Origin: Catenuloplanes niger
Lineage (GTDB): Bacteria; Actinomycetota; Actinomycetes; Mycobacteriales; Micromonosporaceae
Reading direction: 5' to 3'
Assembly (NCBI RefSeq): GCF_031458255.1
Contig: NZ_JAVDYC010000001.1
Coordinates: 7,798,501-7,862,500 of the forward strand
Length of the DNA: 64,000 nucleotides
The position numbers and the translations under genes were made by a program. The notes under the pieces were generated by a model. It saw nothing but the letters and a program-made list of their open reading frames with translations, was not told the DNA's origin and did no database searches. Of this stretch, positions 47,170-54,078 are shown in pieces (within the stretch, counting starts at the first letter, position 1; every line of letters begins with the position of its first letter).

Positions 47170-48099
47170 ATGACCATCAACTCGCACGTGACCACGTTCG
47201 CCGGGTTGCCGGTGGTGCCGTCCGCCGGTGACGTGCCGCCGGACGATCCGGGCGCGGTGGCCTGGCGCGTCGAGATCGAGGACTACGACGTCGCGCCGGC
47301 CGAGTTCGAGGCCGCGATGGAGGCGATGCTGTCGCGGGCCGGCGACGGCGGGCCGGTCGCGCTGGTGATCGGCCAGTGGGGCGGTGCGTACGAGGTGGCG
47401 CCGCCGATCGACCTGTTCGTCCGGCTCGCCCCGCGCATGCCCCGGCTGCGGTCGCTGTTCCTCGGTGATCTGACGTTCGAGGAGTGCGAGATCTCCTGGA
47501 TCCGGCATCAGGACATCGCGCCGCTGCTGACGGCCTATCCCGCGCTGGAGCGGCTGGTCGTGCGCGGCACCGAGGGCCTGGAGATCACCGAGGCCGTGCG
47601 GCACGCCGCGCTGCGCGATCTGGAGATCCAGTCCGGCGGGCTCCCGGCCCGGCTGCTGCGGTCGGTGCTCGCGCTGGAGCTGTCCGCGCTGGAGCGCCTG
47701 AACCTGTGGCTCGGCGTCGAGTCCTACGGCGGTGACGTCGTCCTGGAGGATCTGCGGCCGGTGCTCGCCGAGGCCGACTCCCGCTGGCCCCGGCTGACCG
47801 CGCTGGGCCTGCGCAACAGCGAGATGCAGGACGCGATCGCGGCCGCGGTCGTGGAGTCCCCGCTGCTCGGCCGGCTGCGCGTGCTCGACCTGTCGCTCGG
47901 CACGCTCGGCGACGAGGGCGCGGAGTCGCTGCTCGGCGCCGCCCCGGCCCACCTGGAGGAGCTGGACCTGCACCATCACTTCATGAGCCCGCAGGTGGCG
48001 CAGCGGCTGCTCGACGCGCTGCCCGGCGTGCGCGTCGACGTCACCGACCGGCAGGAGCCGCGCGGCGACTGGGGGCGCTACGTCGAGGTCTCGGAGTGA
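47170..48099 (+). CDS. STM4015 family protein (leucine-rich repeat)
   Basis: 309 residues, first gene of a five-gene operon named after Salmonella STM4011-STM4015. Leucine-rich-repeat-like units run from about 90 to 290: LRSLFLGDL, LERLVVRG, LRDLEIQSGGL, LERLNLWLGV, LTALGLRN, LRVLDLSLGTLGDEGAESLL and LEELDLHHHFMS. The N-terminal 80 residues (FAGLPVVPS, then WRVEIEDYDVAPAEFEAAM) are the family-specific part. It probably binds a partner protein or substrate of the two radical SAM enzymes. Stop overlaps the next GTG by four bases. No function is known to me. Confidence 0.88.
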   Translation: MTINSHVTTFAGLPVVPSAGDVPPDDPGAVAWRVEIEDYDVAPAEFEAAMEAMLSRAGDGGPVALVIGQWGGAYEVAPPIDLFVRLAPRMPRLRSLFLGDLTFEECEISWIRHQDIAPLLTAYPALERLVVRGTEGLEITEAVRHAALRDLEIQSGGLPARLLRSVLALELSALERLNLWLGVESYGGDVVLEDLRPVLAEADSRWPRLTALGLRNSEMQDAIAAAVVESPLLGRLRVLDLSLGTLGDEGAESLLGAAPAHLEELDLHHHFMSPQVAQRLLDALPGVRVDVTDRQEPRGDWGRYVEVSE

Positions 48100-49142
48100 G
48101 CGGGTTCGCCGTGCTGGGCAACCCGGCCAACCGGCGGGTCACGTCGTTCGCCGCGGCGGTCACCGCCGCGGGGCTGCCACCGCCGCGCGTCTACGCGTGG
48201 CGCGACGTGCTCACCGGCGGGCCGGTCCCGGGGCCGGGCGAGCGCGTGCGGGTCGACTCGCCGGGCGAGGACGCCGAGGTCGGCCGGCTGCTGCGCGGCG
48301 CGGTCCGGGCGGCCGCGCACGGCGAGATCACCGGGACGGCGGCCGCGCACGCCGGGCTGGGCGCGGCGCTGCGCCGGGTCGAGGCCGGCGGCGGCACGCT
48401 GCTCAGCGCGCCGGACGACATCCTCACCATGAGCGACAAGCCGCGGTGCCACGCGCTGCTGCGGGAGCACGGCGTGCCGGTGCCCGAGGCGCTGGCGGCC
48501 GTCTCCGGCTACGCCGAGCTGCGGGCGGCGATGCGGGCGGCCGGCTGGGCCCGGGTCTTCGTGAAGCCGTCGCACGGCTCGTCCGCGTCCGGCGTGCTCG
48601 CGCTCACCGCCGCGCCCGGCCGGGTCGCGGCCGTGACCAGCGTCGAGCGCGGCCCCGGCGGGCGCCTCTTCAACAACCTGACCCTCCGGCGGTACGACCG
48701 GGAGGCGGACGTCGCCGCGATCGTCGACACGCTGGCCGGGGACGGGCTGCACGTGGAGCGGTGGTTTCCCAAGGCCGGCCTGGGCGGGCGCACGGTCGAC
48801 CTGCGCGTGGTCGTGATCGCCGGCGAGGCCCGGCACGTCGTGGTGCGGGCCAGCCGGTCTCCGCTGACGAACCTGCACCTCGGCAACGCGCGCGGCGACG
48901 TGGCGGAGGTCCGGGCGCGGGCCGGCGCGCGGGTGTGGGACGCGGCGATGGAGACGTGCGCCCGGGTGGGTGCGGCGTTCCCGCGTACGCTGATGGCCGG
49001 TGTCGATCTGATGATCCACGCGGCCTGGCGGCGGCACGCGGTGGCCGAGGTCAACGCGTTCGGCGACCTGCTGCCCGGTGTGCTGCACCGCGGCGAGGAC
49101 ACCTACACCGCGCAGGTGCGGGCGGCGCTGTGCGCGAGCTGA
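48096..49142 (+). CDS. STM4014 family protein (ATP-grasp-like)
   Basis: 348 residues from the GTG at 48096. Opens GFAVLGNPANRRVTSFAAA, a nucleotide-type fold, then an ATP-grasp-like central part: VFVKPSHGSSASGVLAL near 155 (lysine and glycine-rich loop), RTVDLRVVVIAGEARHVVVRAS near 230 and the metal-binding end VAEVNAFGDLLPG near 318 (E-x-N). ATP-grasp enzymes join a carboxylate to an amine or thiol. Substrate unknown. Overlaps the next start by 13 bases. Confidence 0.88.
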   Translation: MSGFAVLGNPANRRVTSFAAAVTAAGLPPPRVYAWRDVLTGGPVPGPGERVRVDSPGEDAEVGRLLRGAVRAAAHGEITGTAAAHAGLGAALRRVEAGGGTLLSAPDDILTMSDKPRCHALLREHGVPVPEALAAVSGYAELRAAMRAAGWARVFVKPSHGSSASGVLALTAAPGRVAAVTSVERGPGGRLFNNLTLRRYDREADVAAIVDTLAGDGLHVERWFPKAGLGGRTVDLRVVVIAGEARHVVVRASRSPLTNLHLGNARGDVAEVRARAGARVWDAAMETCARVGAAFPRTLMAGVDLMIHAAWRRHAVAEVNAFGDLLPGVLHRGEDTYTAQVRAALCAS

Positions 49143-49915
49143 TCCCGGGCCACGACCTGCTCCTGGTCACGCTGGACACGTTGCGGTTCGACGTCGCGGC
49201 GCGGCTGCACGCCGGCGGGCGCACCCCGGTGCTGGCCGCCCGGCTGCCGGGCGGCTGGGAGCGGCGGCACACCCCGGCCAGTTTCACCTACGCGGCGCAT
49301 CACGCGTTCTTCGCCGGTTTCCTGCCCACGCCGGTCACGCCGGGGCGGCACGAGCGGCCGTTCGCGGCCCGGTTCGCGGGCAGCGAGACGACCGGGCCGG
49401 ACACCTGGGTGTTCGACGCGGCCGACCTGCCGGGCGCGCTCGCCGACGCCGGGTATCACACGGTCTGCCTGGGCGGCGTCGGCTTCTTCAACCCGGGTGC
49501 GCCGCTCGGCCGGGTGCTGCCCGGCCTGTTCGCGGAGGCGCACTGGGAGCCGTCGTTCGGCGTCACCGCGCCCGGCTGCGTGGACGCGCAGGCGGACCGG
49601 CTCGCCGAGATCATCGCCGGGCTGCCGGTGTCGCGGCCGCTGTTCACGTTCGTCAACGTGGCGGCCGTGCACCAGCCGAACCGGCACTATCTGCCGGGCG
49701 CGGCGGCCGACACGGTGGACAGCCACGCGGCCGCGCTGGAGTACGCGGACCGGGCACTGGAACGGGTCTTCGCGCTGGCCGGTGGGCGCGGGCGCCCGTG
49801 CAAGGTGATCATTTGCTCCGACCACGGCACGCTGTACGGCGAGGACGGCCACGTCGGGCACCGGGTCGCGCACGAGGCCGTGTGGACCGTGCCGTACGGG
49901 GAGTTCACGCTGTGA
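49130..49915 (+). CDS. STM4013/SEN3800 family hydrolase (alkaline phosphatase superfamily)
   Basis: 261 residues from a GTG at 49130 inside the previous gene. Metal-site motifs of the sulfatase/phosphatase superfamily: LLLVTLDTLRFDVA near 10 (Asp ligands), TPASFTYAAHHAFFAGFLP near 43 with the Thr/Ser region, and ICSDHGTLYGEDGHVGHRV near 230 (DHG and GHxGH ligands). It is shorter than full sulfatases (about 450-550 residues), so only the core is kept. It should hydrolyse a phosphate or sulfate ester, or transfer such a group. No signal peptide, so cytoplasmic. Confidence 0.88.
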   Translation: MRELIPGHDLLLVTLDTLRFDVAARLHAGGRTPVLAARLPGGWERRHTPASFTYAAHHAFFAGFLPTPVTPGRHERPFAARFAGSETTGPDTWVFDAADLPGALADAGYHTVCLGGVGFFNPGAPLGRVLPGLFAEAHWEPSFGVTAPGCVDAQADRLAEIIAGLPVSRPLFTFVNVAAVHQPNRHYLPGAAADTVDSHAAALEYADRALERVFALAGGRGRPCKVIICSDHGTLYGEDGHVGHRVAHEAVWTVPYGEFTL

Positions 49916-51201
49916 CCGAGTCGCCGTACCAGGGCTATCTGTACGCGTACCCGCACAAGACCGCGTACCGGCGGCTCGACCCGCGGCCGGCGCTGGCCGA
50001 CGTGTGGGCCGGTGAGCGGCAGGACGCGCTCTTCGGGTACGTGCACGTGCCGTTCTGCGAGATGCGCTGCGGCTTCTGCAACCTGTTCACCCGGTCCAAC
50101 CCGGCGGCGGAGCAGGTGACCGCCTATCTCGGGCGGCTGCGTGCGCAGGCGCGGGCGGTGCGGGACGCGCTCGCGCCGGACGCCCGGGTCGCGCGCCTGG
50201 CGATCGGCGGCGGGACACCCACCTACCTGACCGCGCCGGAGCTGACCGAGCTGTTCGAGATCGTCGGCGGGTGGGCCGGGGTGCCGCTCTCGGTGGAGAC
50301 CTCGCCCGCGACCGCCACGCCGGACCGGCTGGCCGTGCTGGCCGGGCACGGGACCACGCGGGTCAGCATCGGCGTGCAGAGCTTCCTGGACGCGGAGGCC
50401 CGGGCGGCCGGCCGGCCGCAGCGCCGCGCGGAGGTGGAGGCCGCGCTCGGTGCGATCCGGGCCGCGGCGATCCCGGTGCTGAACGTCGACCTGATCTACG
50501 GCATCGACGGGCAGACCGCGCGGACCTGGCGGCAGAGCCTGGACGCGGCGCTGGCCTGGCGGCCGGAGGAGCTGTACCTGTATCCGCTGTACGTGCGGCC
50601 GCTGACCGGGCTCGGCCGGCGGGCCCGGACGCGGGCGGACTGGGACGGGCAGCGGATGGCGCTCTACCGGCAGGCGGTGGAGGTGCTGACCGGTGCGGGC
50701 TACGTCCAGCTGTCGATGCGCCAGTTCCGGCGGGCGGACGTGCCGGCCGACGACGGGCCGGACTACTGCTGCCAGGACGACGGCATGGTCGGGCTCGGGT
50801 GCGGCGCCCGGTCGTACACGACGTCGCTGCACTACTCGTTCGACTACGCGGTCACGGTCGGCGAGGTGCGCGCGGTGCTGGACGACTACCTCTCCCGGCC
50901 GGACGACGACTTCCGGTTCGCAGAGTTCGGCTACCGGCTCGACGCGTCCGAGCAGCGGCGGCGGTGGTTGCTGAAGTCGCTGCTGCGGGCCGAGGGGGTG
51001 CCGGCGGCGGACTACCGGGCGCGGTTCGGCACCGCGCACACGGACGACTTCCCGCAGCTGGCGGCGCTGGTGGAGCGCGGCTGGCTGGAGCCGTCCCGGG
51101 ACCGGCTGACCGCGGCCGGGCTGGCCCGGTCGGACGCGATCGGGCCGTGGCTGGTGTCCGGGGAGGTGCGCGCGGCGATGGACGGGTTCGCGCTGCGGTG
51201 A
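49912..51201 (+). CDS. STM4012 family radical SAM protein (HemN-like)
   Basis: 429 residues. YVHVPFCEMRCGFCNLFTR near 42-60 holds the CxxxCxxC 4Fe-4S site (with CNLF as in HemN/HemW-like enzymes), LAIGGGTPTYL near 95 is the SAM-binding GGGTP, and TRVSIGVQSFLDAE and NVDLIYGIDGQT follow, typical of the HemN clan. A HemN C-terminal domain with an FRFAEFGYRLDASEQRRR region ends it. It generates a 5'-deoxyadenosyl radical; the substrate is unknown. The GTG overlaps the hydrolase stop by four bases. Confidence 0.9.
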   Translation: MTESPYQGYLYAYPHKTAYRRLDPRPALADVWAGERQDALFGYVHVPFCEMRCGFCNLFTRSNPAAEQVTAYLGRLRAQARAVRDALAPDARVARLAIGGGTPTYLTAPELTELFEIVGGWAGVPLSVETSPATATPDRLAVLAGHGTTRVSIGVQSFLDAEARAAGRPQRRAEVEAALGAIRAAAIPVLNVDLIYGIDGQTARTWRQSLDAALAWRPEELYLYPLYVRPLTGLGRRARTRADWDGQRMALYRQAVEVLTGAGYVQLSMRQFRRADVPADDGPDYCCQDDGMVGLGCGARSYTTSLHYSFDYAVTVGEVRAVLDDYLSRPDDDFRFAEFGYRLDASEQRRRWLLKSLLRAEGVPAADYRARFGTAHTDDFPQLAALVERGWLEPSRDRLTAAGLARSDAIGPWLVSGEVRAAMDGFALR

Positions 51202-52115
51202 GCGGGCCGGCCGGTGACCGCCGGCTGCTGCCGCTGCGCCCGGCCCCGGAGGCGGATGCGCCGCTCTACGTGCTCTACCGTGGGCCGCTGGCCAGCTGCA
51301 ACTACGACTGTCCGTACTGCCCGTTCGCGAAGCGGGTCGACCCGCCGGCGCTGCTGCGCGCGGACCGGGCCGCGCTGCACCGGTTCGCGGACTGGGTGGC
51401 CGCGACCACCGACCGGCGGCTGTCCGTGCTGTTCACCCCGTGGGGCGAGGGGCTGACCCGGAGCTGGTACCGGGAGACGATCATCCGGCTGTCGCACCTG
51501 CCGCACGTGGACCGGGTCGCGATCCAGACCAACCTGGCCGCCCGCACCGGCTGGCTCGCGGACGCGGACCGGGACACCGCGGCACTGTGGACCACGTACC
51601 ACCCCCGGCAGGTGCGTCGCGACCGCTTCCTGGCGCGGTGCCGCGAGCTGGACGCGCTCGGTGTCCGCTACTCGGTCGGGATCGTCGGCCTGCCGGAGCA
51701 CCTCGACGAGGCGCGGGCGCTGCGCGCGCTGCTGCCGCCGCGCGTCTACCTCTGGGTGAACGCGGCGGACGGGCACGTCTACCCCGCGGCCGAGGAGGCG
51801 GCGTGGACCGCGCTCGACCCGCGCTTCGGCGACAGCGTGCGCCCGCACCCGTCCCGCGGCCTGCCCTGCCACGCGGGCGAGACCGCGATCTCCGTGCTCG
51901 GCGACGGGACGGTGCGGCGCTGCCACTTCGTACCCGCGGCGATCGGGAACCTCTACGACGGTTCGTGGCGGGCCGCGCTCCGGCCGCGGTCCTGCCCGAA
52001 CGCGGCGTGCGACTGCCACATCGGATACGTGCACCTGAAGCCGCTCGGCCTGCGCGACGTCTACCGCGACGGGCTGCTGGAGCGCGTGGTCCACCGGGTC
52101 GAAGAATTTACGTAG
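51198..52115 (+). CDS. STM4011 family radical SAM protein
   Basis: 305 residues, last gene of the operon (4-base overlap). SCNYDCPYCPFAKR near 33-46 is the radical SAM CxxxCxxC. FTPWGEGL near 80 replaces the SAM-binding GGE. A C-terminal cysteine set, GLPCHAGETAISVLGDGTVR with RCHFVP, then SCPNAACDCH, resembles SPASM/twitch auxiliary iron-sulfur domains used by peptide- and protein-modifying radical SAM enzymes. That hints at a peptide or protein substrate, but this is inference. Confidence 0.9.
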   Translation: MSGPAGDRRLLPLRPAPEADAPLYVLYRGPLASCNYDCPYCPFAKRVDPPALLRADRAALHRFADWVAATTDRRLSVLFTPWGEGLTRSWYRETIIRLSHLPHVDRVAIQTNLAARTGWLADADRDTAALWTTYHPRQVRRDRFLARCRELDALGVRYSVGIVGLPEHLDEARALRALLPPRVYLWVNAADGHVYPAAEEAAWTALDPRFGDSVRPHPSRGLPCHAGETAISVLGDGTVRRCHFVPAAIGNLYDGSWRAALRPRSCPNAACDCHIGYVHLKPLGLRDVYRDGLLERVVHRVEEFT

Positions 52116-52173
52116 CGGAGTATTTACACGCACTAACATGCTCGTAGCTCAACCCCTCGAACAGGGAGAACGC

Positions 52174-54078
52174 ATGTTACGCAGATCCGCGGTGGTCCTG
52201 GTGGCGGCGCTCGCCGCCGTGCTCGGCGCGGTGTCGCCCGCGTCCGCCGGCGGCCCCCGGCACGTGCGCGGCACCGAGACGATCCCGGTGTACGACTACG
52301 CGACCGCGATTCGCGAGACCGTGTGGGTGGAGTCGCCGCTCGACTCCGACGGCGACGGGACCCGGGACCGGATCGCGGCCGACATCGTCCGTCCACGTGA
52401 GGCACGGACCCGGATTCCCGTGGTGATGGAGGCGTCGCCCTACTACGCCTGCTGCGGCCGCGGCAACGAGTCCGAGCTGAAGGAGTACGCGGCGGACGGC
52501 ACGGTCTCGCTGATGCCGCTCTACTACGACAACTACTTCGTACCCCGCGGTTACGCGTTCGTCGGCGTCGACCTGTCCGGCACCGCGCGCTCCACCGGCT
52601 GCGACGACGTCGGCGGCCCGGCCGAGGTGGCCGGCGCGAAGGCCGTGATCGACTGGCTGAACGGCCGCGGTACGGCGTTCGACGCGGCCGGTGCGCGGGT
52701 CACCGCGTCCTGGACCACCGGCAAGGTCGGCATGATCGGCAAGTCCTGGGACGGTTCCGTGGCGAACGGTGTCGCCGCGACCGGCGTGCGCGGCCTGGAG
52801 ACGATCGTCCCGATCGGCGCGATCTCCAGCTGGTACGACTACCAGCGCTACCACGGCATCCTGCGCACCCGGGAGTACGTGCGCTACCTGCACTCCTATG
52901 TGAACGGCCGGCCGGCCGAGGCCTGCGCGGACGAGCTGGCCGCGATGCGGGCGGCCAGCGGCGAGACCACCGGTGACTTCACCGCCTACTGGTCGGAGCG
53001 CGACTACCGCACCGCCGCCCGCACCGTGCGGGCCAGCGTGTTCGTCGTGCACGGCGTCAACGACAAGAACGTCGCGACCGGCCAGTTCGGGCTGTGGTGG
53101 GACGCGCTGGCGAAGCACGGTGTCGAGCGCAAGCTGTGGCTGTTCCAGGCCGGCCACGAGGACCCGTTCGACGTGCGCCGGGCCGAGTGGGTGCGCACGC
53201 TGCACCGCTGGTTCGACCACGAGCTCCAGGGCCTGCGCAACGGCATCGACCGGGAGCCGCGCGCCACGCTGGAGACCGCACCCGGCGTGTGGCAGGACGA
53301 GCGCGACTGGCCGGCCCGCGGCGTCCGGGAGCGCGCGCTGCCGCTCGGCGACGGCACGCTCGGCGCCGGCGCCAAGGGACGCGGCGTGACGAAGACGTTC
53401 ACGGACGAGTCGCTGCGGGAGGACGCGCTGGTGGCGAACCCGTCCACGGTCGTGCCGGGCCGGCTGGCGTTCCTGTCGGCGCCGCTGACCGCGCCGCTGC
53501 GGATCTCCGGTGAGCCGTCCGTGACGCTGCGGATCCAGGTGGACAAGCCGACCACGGCGCTGTCCGCGCGGCTCGTCGACTACGGCACCGCCACCCGCGT
53601 CGACCACTTCCGTTCCGAGGGCGTGGTCAACCTGGCCACCGAGTCCTGCTGGGGTGCGGCGTCCGCGACCGACGACGCCTGCTATCTGGACACGGCGGAG
53701 GTGACGGTGACCGCGGACCACGCGGTGCTGACCCGCGGCTGGGCGGACGCGGCGCATCACCGGTCGCTGCGCTTCACCACGCCGCTGGAGCCGGGCCGGT
53801 GGTACGACGTGACCGTGCCGCTGAACACCTATGACGTGACGGTCGCGGCCGGGCACGTGCTCGGCCTGGTGATCGGCCAGTCCGACCCGCAGTTCACGGT
53901 GACCGACGACCGGAACGCCACGGTCACGGTCGACGTCGGCCGCAGCACGCTCACGCTGCCCGCCACCGGCGCCACCGTCACGGCACCCACGGCGCCGCAG
54001 ACGATCGCCACCACCGGGCTCCCGGGCGCGGCCGAGCGGCGCGCCGCCGAGAACGTCCCGGTGGTGCCGCGGGGCTGA
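52174..54078 (+). CDS. Secreted X-Pro dipeptidyl-peptidase (S15) family hydrolase
   Basis: 634 residues. Signal peptide MLRRSAVVLVAALAAVLGAV with AXA-type site SPASA near residue 26. The alpha/beta-hydrolase part has GMIGKSWDGSVANG with nucleophile Ser near 190, D in VVHGVNDKNVAT near 300 and H in FQAGHEDPFD near 335. A C-terminal galactose-binding-like jelly-roll (about 410-600) matches the PepX_C domain. It likely removes X-Pro dipeptides or cleaves related esters outside the cell. GGGAG precedes the ATG; TAACAT near 52135 may be the -10 box. Confidence 0.93.
   Translation: MLRRSAVVLVAALAAVLGAVSPASAGGPRHVRGTETIPVYDYATAIRETVWVESPLDSDGDGTRDRIAADIVRPREARTRIPVVMEASPYYACCGRGNESELKEYAADGTVSLMPLYYDNYFVPRGYAFVGVDLSGTARSTGCDDVGGPAEVAGAKAVIDWLNGRGTAFDAAGARVTASWTTGKVGMIGKSWDGSVANGVAATGVRGLETIVPIGAISSWYDYQRYHGILRTREYVRYLHSYVNGRPAEACADELAAMRAASGETTGDFTAYWSERDYRTAARTVRASVFVVHGVNDKNVATGQFGLWWDALAKHGVERKLWLFQAGHEDPFDVRRAEWVRTLHRWFDHELQGLRNGIDREPRATLETAPGVWQDERDWPARGVRERALPLGDGTLGAGAKGRGVTKTFTDESLREDALVANPSTVVPGRLAFLSAPLTAPLRISGEPSVTLRIQVDKPTTALSARLVDYGTATRVDHFRSEGVVNLATESCWGAASATDDACYLDTAEVTVTADHAVLTRGWADAAHHRSLRFTTPLEPGRWYDVTVPLNTYDVTVAAGHVLGLVIGQSDPQFTVTDDRNATVTVDVGRSTLTLPATGATVTAPTAPQTIATTGLPGAAERRAAENVPVVPRG

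Follow-up and report, generated by a model that had tools for sequence, protein, structure and literature searches.

The five genes STM4015-STM4014-STM4013-STM4012-STM4011 at positions 47170-52115 of the window, by which the whole analysed stretch of 64,000 nucleotides from the 9.74 Mb chromosome of Catenuloplanes niger is meant, constitute a real five-gene system, and its first product STM4015, a protein with leucine-rich repeats (LRR), ends in a glutamate that is kept in all intact proteins examined, which come from six phyla. This residue, together with the predicted fold of the ATP-grasp protein STM4014, suggests a reading that we favour tentatively and give slightly less than an even chance: STM4015 would be an LRR carrier on whose last Glu STM4014 loads an amine, to be processed by two radical S-adenosylmethionine (SAM) enzymes and a hydrolase.

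The preliminary description of this region, made from the sequence alone, listed five overlapping genes on one strand under the family names STM4011-STM4015. Coordinates, the common + strand and the successive overlaps of 4, 13, 4 and 4 bases were borne out, and the names hold as well, all five proteins exceeding the curated NCBIfam cut-off of the respective family. The genes and the parts of their products that matter below are as follows, with confidence of structure models given as pLDDT (predicted local distance difference test).

47170-48099, + strand: STM4015 gene, 309 aa; NF038076, 320.8 bits against a cut-off of 275; homologue of the solved structure 2RA8; AlphaFold model with pLDDT 97.
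48028-48075, + strand: variable acidic linker of STM4015, residues 287-302, defined by column information in 94 Actinomycetota sequences.
48076-48096, + strand: C-terminal tail of STM4015, R303-Y-V-E-V-S-E309; Glu last in 138/141 distinct open frames.
48096-49142, + strand: STM4014 gene, 348 aa, ATP-grasp; NF038074, 421 bits, above the curated cut-off; model pLDDT 94.6.
48867-48899, + strand: TNLHLGNARGD in STM4014, aligned with SNLHRGG of RimK in a profile comparison with the E. coli protein.
49130-49915, + strand: STM4013 gene, 261 aa, GTG start, alkaline-phosphatase superfamily; NF038075, 371.5 bits, above the curated cut-off.
49286-49288, + strand: Thr53 of STM4013, candidate nucleophile by inferred role; invariant in 15/15 chosen sequences.
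49912-51201, + strand: STM4012 gene, 429 aa, HemN-like radical SAM protein; NF006067, 598.4 bits, above the curated cut-off.
50056-50079, + strand: CEMRCGFC, radical SAM cluster motif of STM4012; three Cys invariant in 18/18 chosen sequences.
51198-52115, + strand: STM4011 gene, 305 aa, radical SAM protein with SPASM-like cysteines; NF038073, 389.7 bits, above the curated cut-off.
51297-51320, + strand: CNYDCPYC, radical SAM cluster motif of STM4011; three Cys invariant in 17/17 chosen sequences.
51867-52016, + strand: auxiliary cluster cysteines C224, C242, C266, C271 and C273 of STM4011; invariant in 17/17 chosen sequences.

When comparing 296 genomes drawn evenly from Actinomycetota, with hits counted above the family cut-off, matches of each of the five families were found in the same six genomes (G000, G007, G053, G136, G190 and G211). 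At E ≤ 0.001 regardless of cut-off, STM4015 was matched in 6 genomes, STM4011 in 12, STM4014 in 59, STM4013 in 58 and STM4012 in 230, and the matches below the cut-offs are taken as relatives of other function. One of the six genomes (G190) carries a second STM4013 above the cut-off and a second STM4015, both elsewhere in the genome. A scan of named genomes for STM4012 gave at least 580 relatives; the comparison used the 80 best loci, all from Actinomycetota. Seventy-two of these contain all five genes in the single order 4015-4014-4013-4012-4011 on one strand (in L073, one of the 72, the contig stops within STM4011), two run off their contigs (L025 and L037) and six lack an adjacent STM4014 (L030, L031, L033, L034, L049 and L083). 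The idea of a dispensable ATP-grasp protein was rejected, since these six genomes carry STM4014 elsewhere, as did both control genomes (8/8 searched; G324-G327 as partial matches in pieces).

Phyla outside Actinomycetota were sampled through plasmid records, and the same gene order appears on those of Salmonella, Paenibacillus, Methylobacterium and three Deinococcus, which agrees with the earlier claims of a conserved system and of its occurrence in distant bacteria. In Bacteroides finegoldii (L099) intact STM4013 and STM4012 are missing. Remnants of both lie in the gap and this three-gene version is therefore regarded as a local deletion, not as a simpler system. Its STM4015 (L099 5516-6589) carries an N-terminal WGR domain. 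The Salmonella operon DNA gave no match in 5,426 E. coli genomes when searched with megablast only. The five genes form one unit, found together in at least four bacterial phyla, and seem to make up a single biochemical pathway.

The residue on which the favoured reading turns is the last one of STM4015. Among 141 distinct open frames in which an STM4015 match reaches the stop codon (91 loci), 138 end in Glu, and the three exceptions (L010, L032 and L033) are frameshifted or broken genes; the 138 count in a 3' fragment of L033, one of these broken genes, and exclude the window protein itself (RYVEVSE). Glu is also last in eight out of eight further proteins, one from Calothrix, four from Deinococcus, one from Streptomyces cadmiisoli and two from Embleya, those of Calothrix, Streptomyces cadmiisoli and Embleya being copies away from the operon. 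In the intact proteins examined, drawn from six phyla, the terminal Glu is never replaced by Asp and the chain is never longer. The tail is nearly always R-Y-x-x-V-(S/A/G)-E and stands behind the variable acidic linker; 134 of the 138 ends conform to [YF]xx[VILMA][SAGTD]E and the remaining four deviate at position -5 yet retain Glu. Position -1 varies between S, A, G, T and D. Examples are MNAMYTE in Salmonella (off at -5 and -2), YYPMITE in Bacteroides, RYPSLTE in Paenibacillus, RSIAVSE in Methylobacterium (off at -5), RFVALGE or RYVALGE in Deinococcus and RYCSVAE in Calothrix.

In the alignment of 94 Actinomycetota sequences the mean column information is 3.12 bits for the tail, 2.34 bits for residues 30-286 and 1.60 bits for the linker. 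Ranked by information content, a measure that gives common residues less weight, Y304 is 6th and E309 39th of 309. All 136 STM4015 rows end at one alignment column, including the frameshifted L010 protein which ends in R, and for STM4014, STM4013 and STM4011 the shared end column holds 28/79, 18/81 and 17/84 proteins, respectively. The loose tail motif closes only one of 13,968 other mechanical open reading frames (ORFs), and that one is an STM4015 remnant. The tail as a tag on other proteins was rejected, the pattern giving seven matches in the source genome against five in the reversed control; three of the matches have a real stop codon, STM4015 among them. Of the two others with a stop, L116 closes a mechanical ORF of 77 residues which lies antisense to one of 692 residues, and L120 does not close any listed ORF of at least 50 aa.

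Two unusual STM4015 relatives were also seen. A frame of 91 codons (L022 6849-7121) joins the STM4015 N-terminus to the tail with the LRR body gone, apparently a remnant of an in-frame deletion. A Calothrix plasmid protein (L124 2014-3288) has an extra N-terminal region before its STM4015 domain and retains the RYCSVAE end; the surrounding 9.2 kb contain no operon gene, and nothing in the whole record is matched by the profile of STM4013 or of STM4012.

The LRR of STM4015 pointed out in the preliminary description fall below the Pfam cut-off (19.6 against 23.4 bits), yet the family has a solved member of LRR fold, 2RA8, matched by the window protein with E 8e-63 by sequence and E 2e-20 by fold, and the AlphaFold model, like that of STM4014 a single chain, is confident throughout. 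Several non-leucine residues of the body are invariant or nearly so (W32, W70, W110, W180, Y186, H261, H269 and H270), and the 94 Actinomycetota proteins share twelve invariant columns including Glu309. STM4015 is present in one to six copies per locus and each enzyme in one. Counted by envelopes of hidden Markov models, several copies (two to six) stand in 27 of the 87 locus rows; merging the overlapping L093 and L096 makes this 26 of 86. Copies within a locus are 41-77% identical (55 pairs, those in alignment A1), and a tree made with a quick method, in which many forks are open, places the expansions in separate lineages. A multiplied STM4015 with a single set of enzymes fits a serviced substrate or carrier, but also other ideas.

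STM4014 weakly resembles RimK, LysX and MptN in sequence. A profile comparison with E. coli RimK gave E 2.9e-4 at a probability of 41%, and the protein scores below the NCBIfam rimK_fam cut-off (25.8 against 143.4 bits). Within the stretch aligned with RimK, N259, L260, H261, L262, G263 and R266 are invariant in 55 chosen sequences. When the model was used in a fold search, ranks 1-2 were taken by ArgX solved with LysW (3VPB, E 4e-13), ranks 3-6 by PsnB, rank 7 by LysX/ArgX with LysW-gamma-AAA (5K2M), and ranks 16, 18 and 23 by DcsG, LysX and RimK. Identities of 14-18% and TM-scores by query length of about 0.5-0.6 mean that these matches show fold, not function; judged from the model, STM4014 has the ATP-grasp fold of the LysX/RimK type.

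The motifs named in the preliminary description are all present in the window proteins, CxxxCxxC as CEMRCGFC and CNYDCPYC, E-x-N as EVN and GHxGH as GHVGH, beside VKPSHG and SDHG, and the extra SPASM-like cysteines it saw in STM4011 amount to five. Conservation of catalytic residues in STM4011, STM4012 and STM4013 was read on chosen subsets of sequences. In STM4013 the Pfam Sulfatase domain lies above its cut-off (33.1 against 25 bits), and by profile the phosphodiesterase/nucleotide pyrophosphatase 2GSN is the best match (E 1.3e-8) with sulfatases next. D16, Thr53, D231, H232, H244 and H248 are invariant in 15/15 chosen sequences. In type I sulfatases a Cys or Ser at the nucleophile position becomes formylglycine; a sulfate role for the hydrolase, which had been suggested beside a phosphate role, is disfavoured by the alignment, where the likely nucleophile is the invariant Thr53 and not Cys or Ser.

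STM4012 matches HemN (1OLT, E 2e-58) and NocN (9P2U, E 1e-37) by profile and scores below the cut-offs for hemN (109 against 324.95 bits) and HemW (121.4 against 205.4 bits). Among solved structures STM4011 matches SkfB alone (6EFN, E 1.5e-4; threshold E 0.1), and its scores lie below the Pfam cut-offs for SPASM (14.4 against 21.5 bits) and Radical_SAM (20.9 against 29.5 bits); CxxxCxxC and the five further cysteines occur in 17/17 chosen sequences, those of Salmonella and Bacteroides among them. On Rhizobium and Cupriavidus plasmids (L103 5950-8267 and L104 5911-8246) an STM4012-like gene is paired not with the operon genes but with an overlapping gene for a class I methyltransferase, and the enzyme may there be put to another use. 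Streptomyces sp. SAT1 has an STM4012-like gene with no other operon gene in a 17 kb stretch.

In the carrier pathway that we favour, the invariant last Glu of STM4015, behind its variable acidic linker, would be the attachment site. STM4014 would use ATP to activate a carboxylate of this Glu and attach to it, through its amine, a small substrate such as an amino acid, after which the HemN-like STM4012 and the SPASM-like STM4011 would alter the tethered group. STM4013, with its phosphatase/phosphodiesterase fold and putative Thr nucleophile, might remove or move a phosphate, and the LRR body could serve as a holder for the enzymes or display the tail. Release of the product would fall to an enzyme encoded elsewhere, unless the product is retained on the protein as a modification. 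That STM4014 acts on STM4015 is inferred, as are the sequence of the steps, what the other enzymes do chemically and the part played by the LRR body. The LRR protein had earlier been suggested as either substrate or docking platform; the invariant C-terminal Glu and the presence of ligases acting on such C-termini among the folds matched by STM4014 speak for the substrate, and the docking platform is kept as a rival below. A broader form of the carrier pathway, which we think unlikely, is a new carrier metabolism in which LRR proteins, two to six in a row in some genomes, share an enzyme-made C-terminal group; this group may then stay on the LRR proteins as a common C-terminal cofactor.

Several observations weigh against the carrier pathway. 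The sequence similarity between STM4014 and RimK is weak, and graspetide ligases and D-Ala-D-Ala ligases likewise stand high in the STM4014 fold search. The GSWGR motif of LysX/ArgX binds the EDWGE end of LysW (PMC10433800). GSWGR is absent from STM4014 of the window and from 79/79 relatives, and EDWGE is found in 0/136 STM4015 rows, which places both proteins outside the LysX/ArgX and LysW families; what they have in common with these is the principle of operation. No cluster of neighbouring genes exceeds 17 of 32 loci when ORFs of at least 80 aa are compared (smaller clusters were left unnamed), and thus neither a release enzyme nor an exporter turned up as a constant neighbour. STM4012 also shares its end column, in 82/84 proteins (73 R and 9 K) and without evident reason, so that a fixed end alone is no proof of chemistry. 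The tail is placed confidently in the AlphaFold model (residues 301-309, mean pLDDT 94) and the 2RA8 crystal shows 351 of 362 chain residues; an ordered tail is therefore likely, at least as long as no partner is bound, and the model does not support a free arm. The Glu might be displayed at a set position, or be structural in role. The codons at the gene end also have to be considered. Of 142 STM4015 ends (four of which repeat a gene already counted), 114 have a Glu codon whose final base forms, with TGA, a potential ATG or GTG start for the next gene, and part of the codon constraint could therefore stem from overlap. As sole cause of the Glu-stop, gene overlap was rejected: the other ends keep Glu, both Glu codons (91 GAG and 51 GAA) and all stops (116 TGA, 19 TAG and 7 TAA) are used, and 57/136 ends lie more than 20 nt ahead of the next recognised operon gene.

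The main rival, a real possibility though on balance doubtful, is a structural or docking tail which folds onto the LRR body or into a partner pocket with its Glu in a salt bridge, STM4015 being a scaffold that brings the four enzymes together for work on another substrate. The ordered tail of the model, the nearly complete 2RA8 chain, the many conserved non-leucine residues of the body and the equally unexplained fixed end of STM4012 are all in keeping with it. Such a tail does not readily account for a Glu that never becomes Asp in a chain that is never extended, although the linker before it varies, nor for the Glu in copies away from the operon, and why a scaffold should exist in up to six copies is not evident. 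We consider it quite unlikely that the system resembles those making ribosomally synthesised and post-translationally modified peptides, with STM4011 and STM4012 altering residues of the R-Y-x-x-V-x-E tail and STM4014 closing a side-chain amide or ester as in graspetides. The PsnB complexes among the best STM4014 folds, the peptide maturase SkfB as match of STM4011 and the strong conservation of an aromatic residue at -5 and of V at -2 point in this direction, but Glu alone is invariant: Y/F at -5 is replaced in 4/138 ends and -1 is variable, hence no acceptor residue is fixed, and neither a protease nor an exporter is a constant neighbour among the named clusters.

A conflict or immunity system, where diversified LRR proteins would recognise targets and bear the enzyme-made group, appears very improbable. 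It could draw on the divergence of the tandem LRR copies and on the patchy distribution of the system (6/296 genomes), but the conserved non-leucine residues run along the STM4015 body. PADLOC, run on seven proteins, gave nothing for STM4015, STM4014, STM4013 and STM4011 and a single weak match for STM4012 (PDC-M51A, 23.4 bits), with no strong match to known anti-phage defence systems; nothing convincing for a defence system came from it.

In the window an X-Pro dipeptidyl-peptidase (S15) gene follows at 52138-54078 on the same strand, its longest ORF beginning 22 bases past STM4011. Genes for a DUF6745 protein (51/93 loci) and for a protein of about 110 residues (53/93 loci) often lie near the operon, with no fixed orientation (examples L102 10192-11513 and L101 3653-4978). 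The DUF6745 proteins listed share similar ends, Y-x-P and then mostly [EQ]-T, while the ~110-residue proteins show the pattern MYRQGDVLI...HSHR...HEEH...RQREY. As a further constant gene the latter was discarded, a search of the genome containing the window, run without positive control, having failed to find it. In Salmonella the end of STM4011 overlaps with a gene for a Cof-type HAD phosphatase and in Bacteroides (L099 7968-9533) STM4011 is fused to a HAD domain, which together give mild support to phosphate chemistry.

The five families already carry curated names, and in the literature searched no function is described for them, in line with the preliminary description; an earlier mention is possible in Iyer et al. 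2009, which is said to deal with amidoligases, and in Haft and Basu 2011, reportedly a radical SAM survey. Titles and opening parts of abstracts of the papers found that name STM401x genes do not concern their function, no paper found in the search combines radical SAM, ATP-grasp and leucine-rich repeat, and 2RA8 and Q64V53 are unnamed in the papers searched. New here are the invariant terminal Glu of STM4015, STM4015 as the multiplied gene and the ArgX-like predicted fold of STM4014. The Glu narrows open guesses to one sharp, testable point, the C-terminus of STM4015. If the carrier pathway is true, radical SAM chemistry would act on a substrate tethered to the C-terminal end of a protein, beside the lysine/arginine carrier pathways and the pearlins, and a further kind of carrier would span Salmonella, Paenibacillus, Deinococcus and Streptomyces.

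Among known systems, the carrier pathways of lysine and arginine are one to compare with. The group tethered to LysW passes kinase, reductase and transaminase steps; in contrast, the present operon encodes two radical SAM enzymes and its ligase lacks GSWGR. As described in PMC10433800, LysX and ArgX attach amines to LysW at the gamma-carboxyl of its C-terminal Glu; LysW/ArgW share with STM4015 the acidic residues before an invariant C-terminal Glu and the partnership with an ATP-grasp ligase, ArgX solved with LysW also being the top fold match of STM4014. In the same description LysW is small and zinc-binding with Glu54 last in an EDWGE end, unlike STM4015, an LRR protein of about 300 residues.

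The graspetide ligases PsnB and MdnC share with STM4014 the ATP-grasp fold that acts on peptides. They differ in that no short precursor peptide was recognised here, where short ORFs are poorly covered, and a term search of the main text of a graspetide survey (PMC8939145) finds no mention of leucine-rich/LRR, STM40, HemN or phosphatase. STM4012 resembles HemN and the class C methyltransferase NocN, STM4011 resembles SkfB, in both cases by fold family and cofactor motifs in profile comparisons, and STM4013 is similarly related to nucleotide pyrophosphatase by fold family and catalytic motifs; all three nevertheless belong to distinct curated families. RimK is an ATP-grasp ligase adding Glu to the C-terminus of ribosomal protein S6, which itself ends in Glu, and STM4014 resembles it in fold and in the TNLH stretch. 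RimK, however, modifies the ribosome, and we know of no radical SAM partners for it. In the pearlin pathways the ligase is dependent on aminoacyl-tRNA and the carrier is a short peptide, unlike the ATP-grasp and LRR proteins found here. The likeness would lie in the principle that a small molecule is built on a ribosomal carrier, as proposed for STM4015 and as described for the 3-thia-amino acids made on a carrier peptide (PMC9303977).

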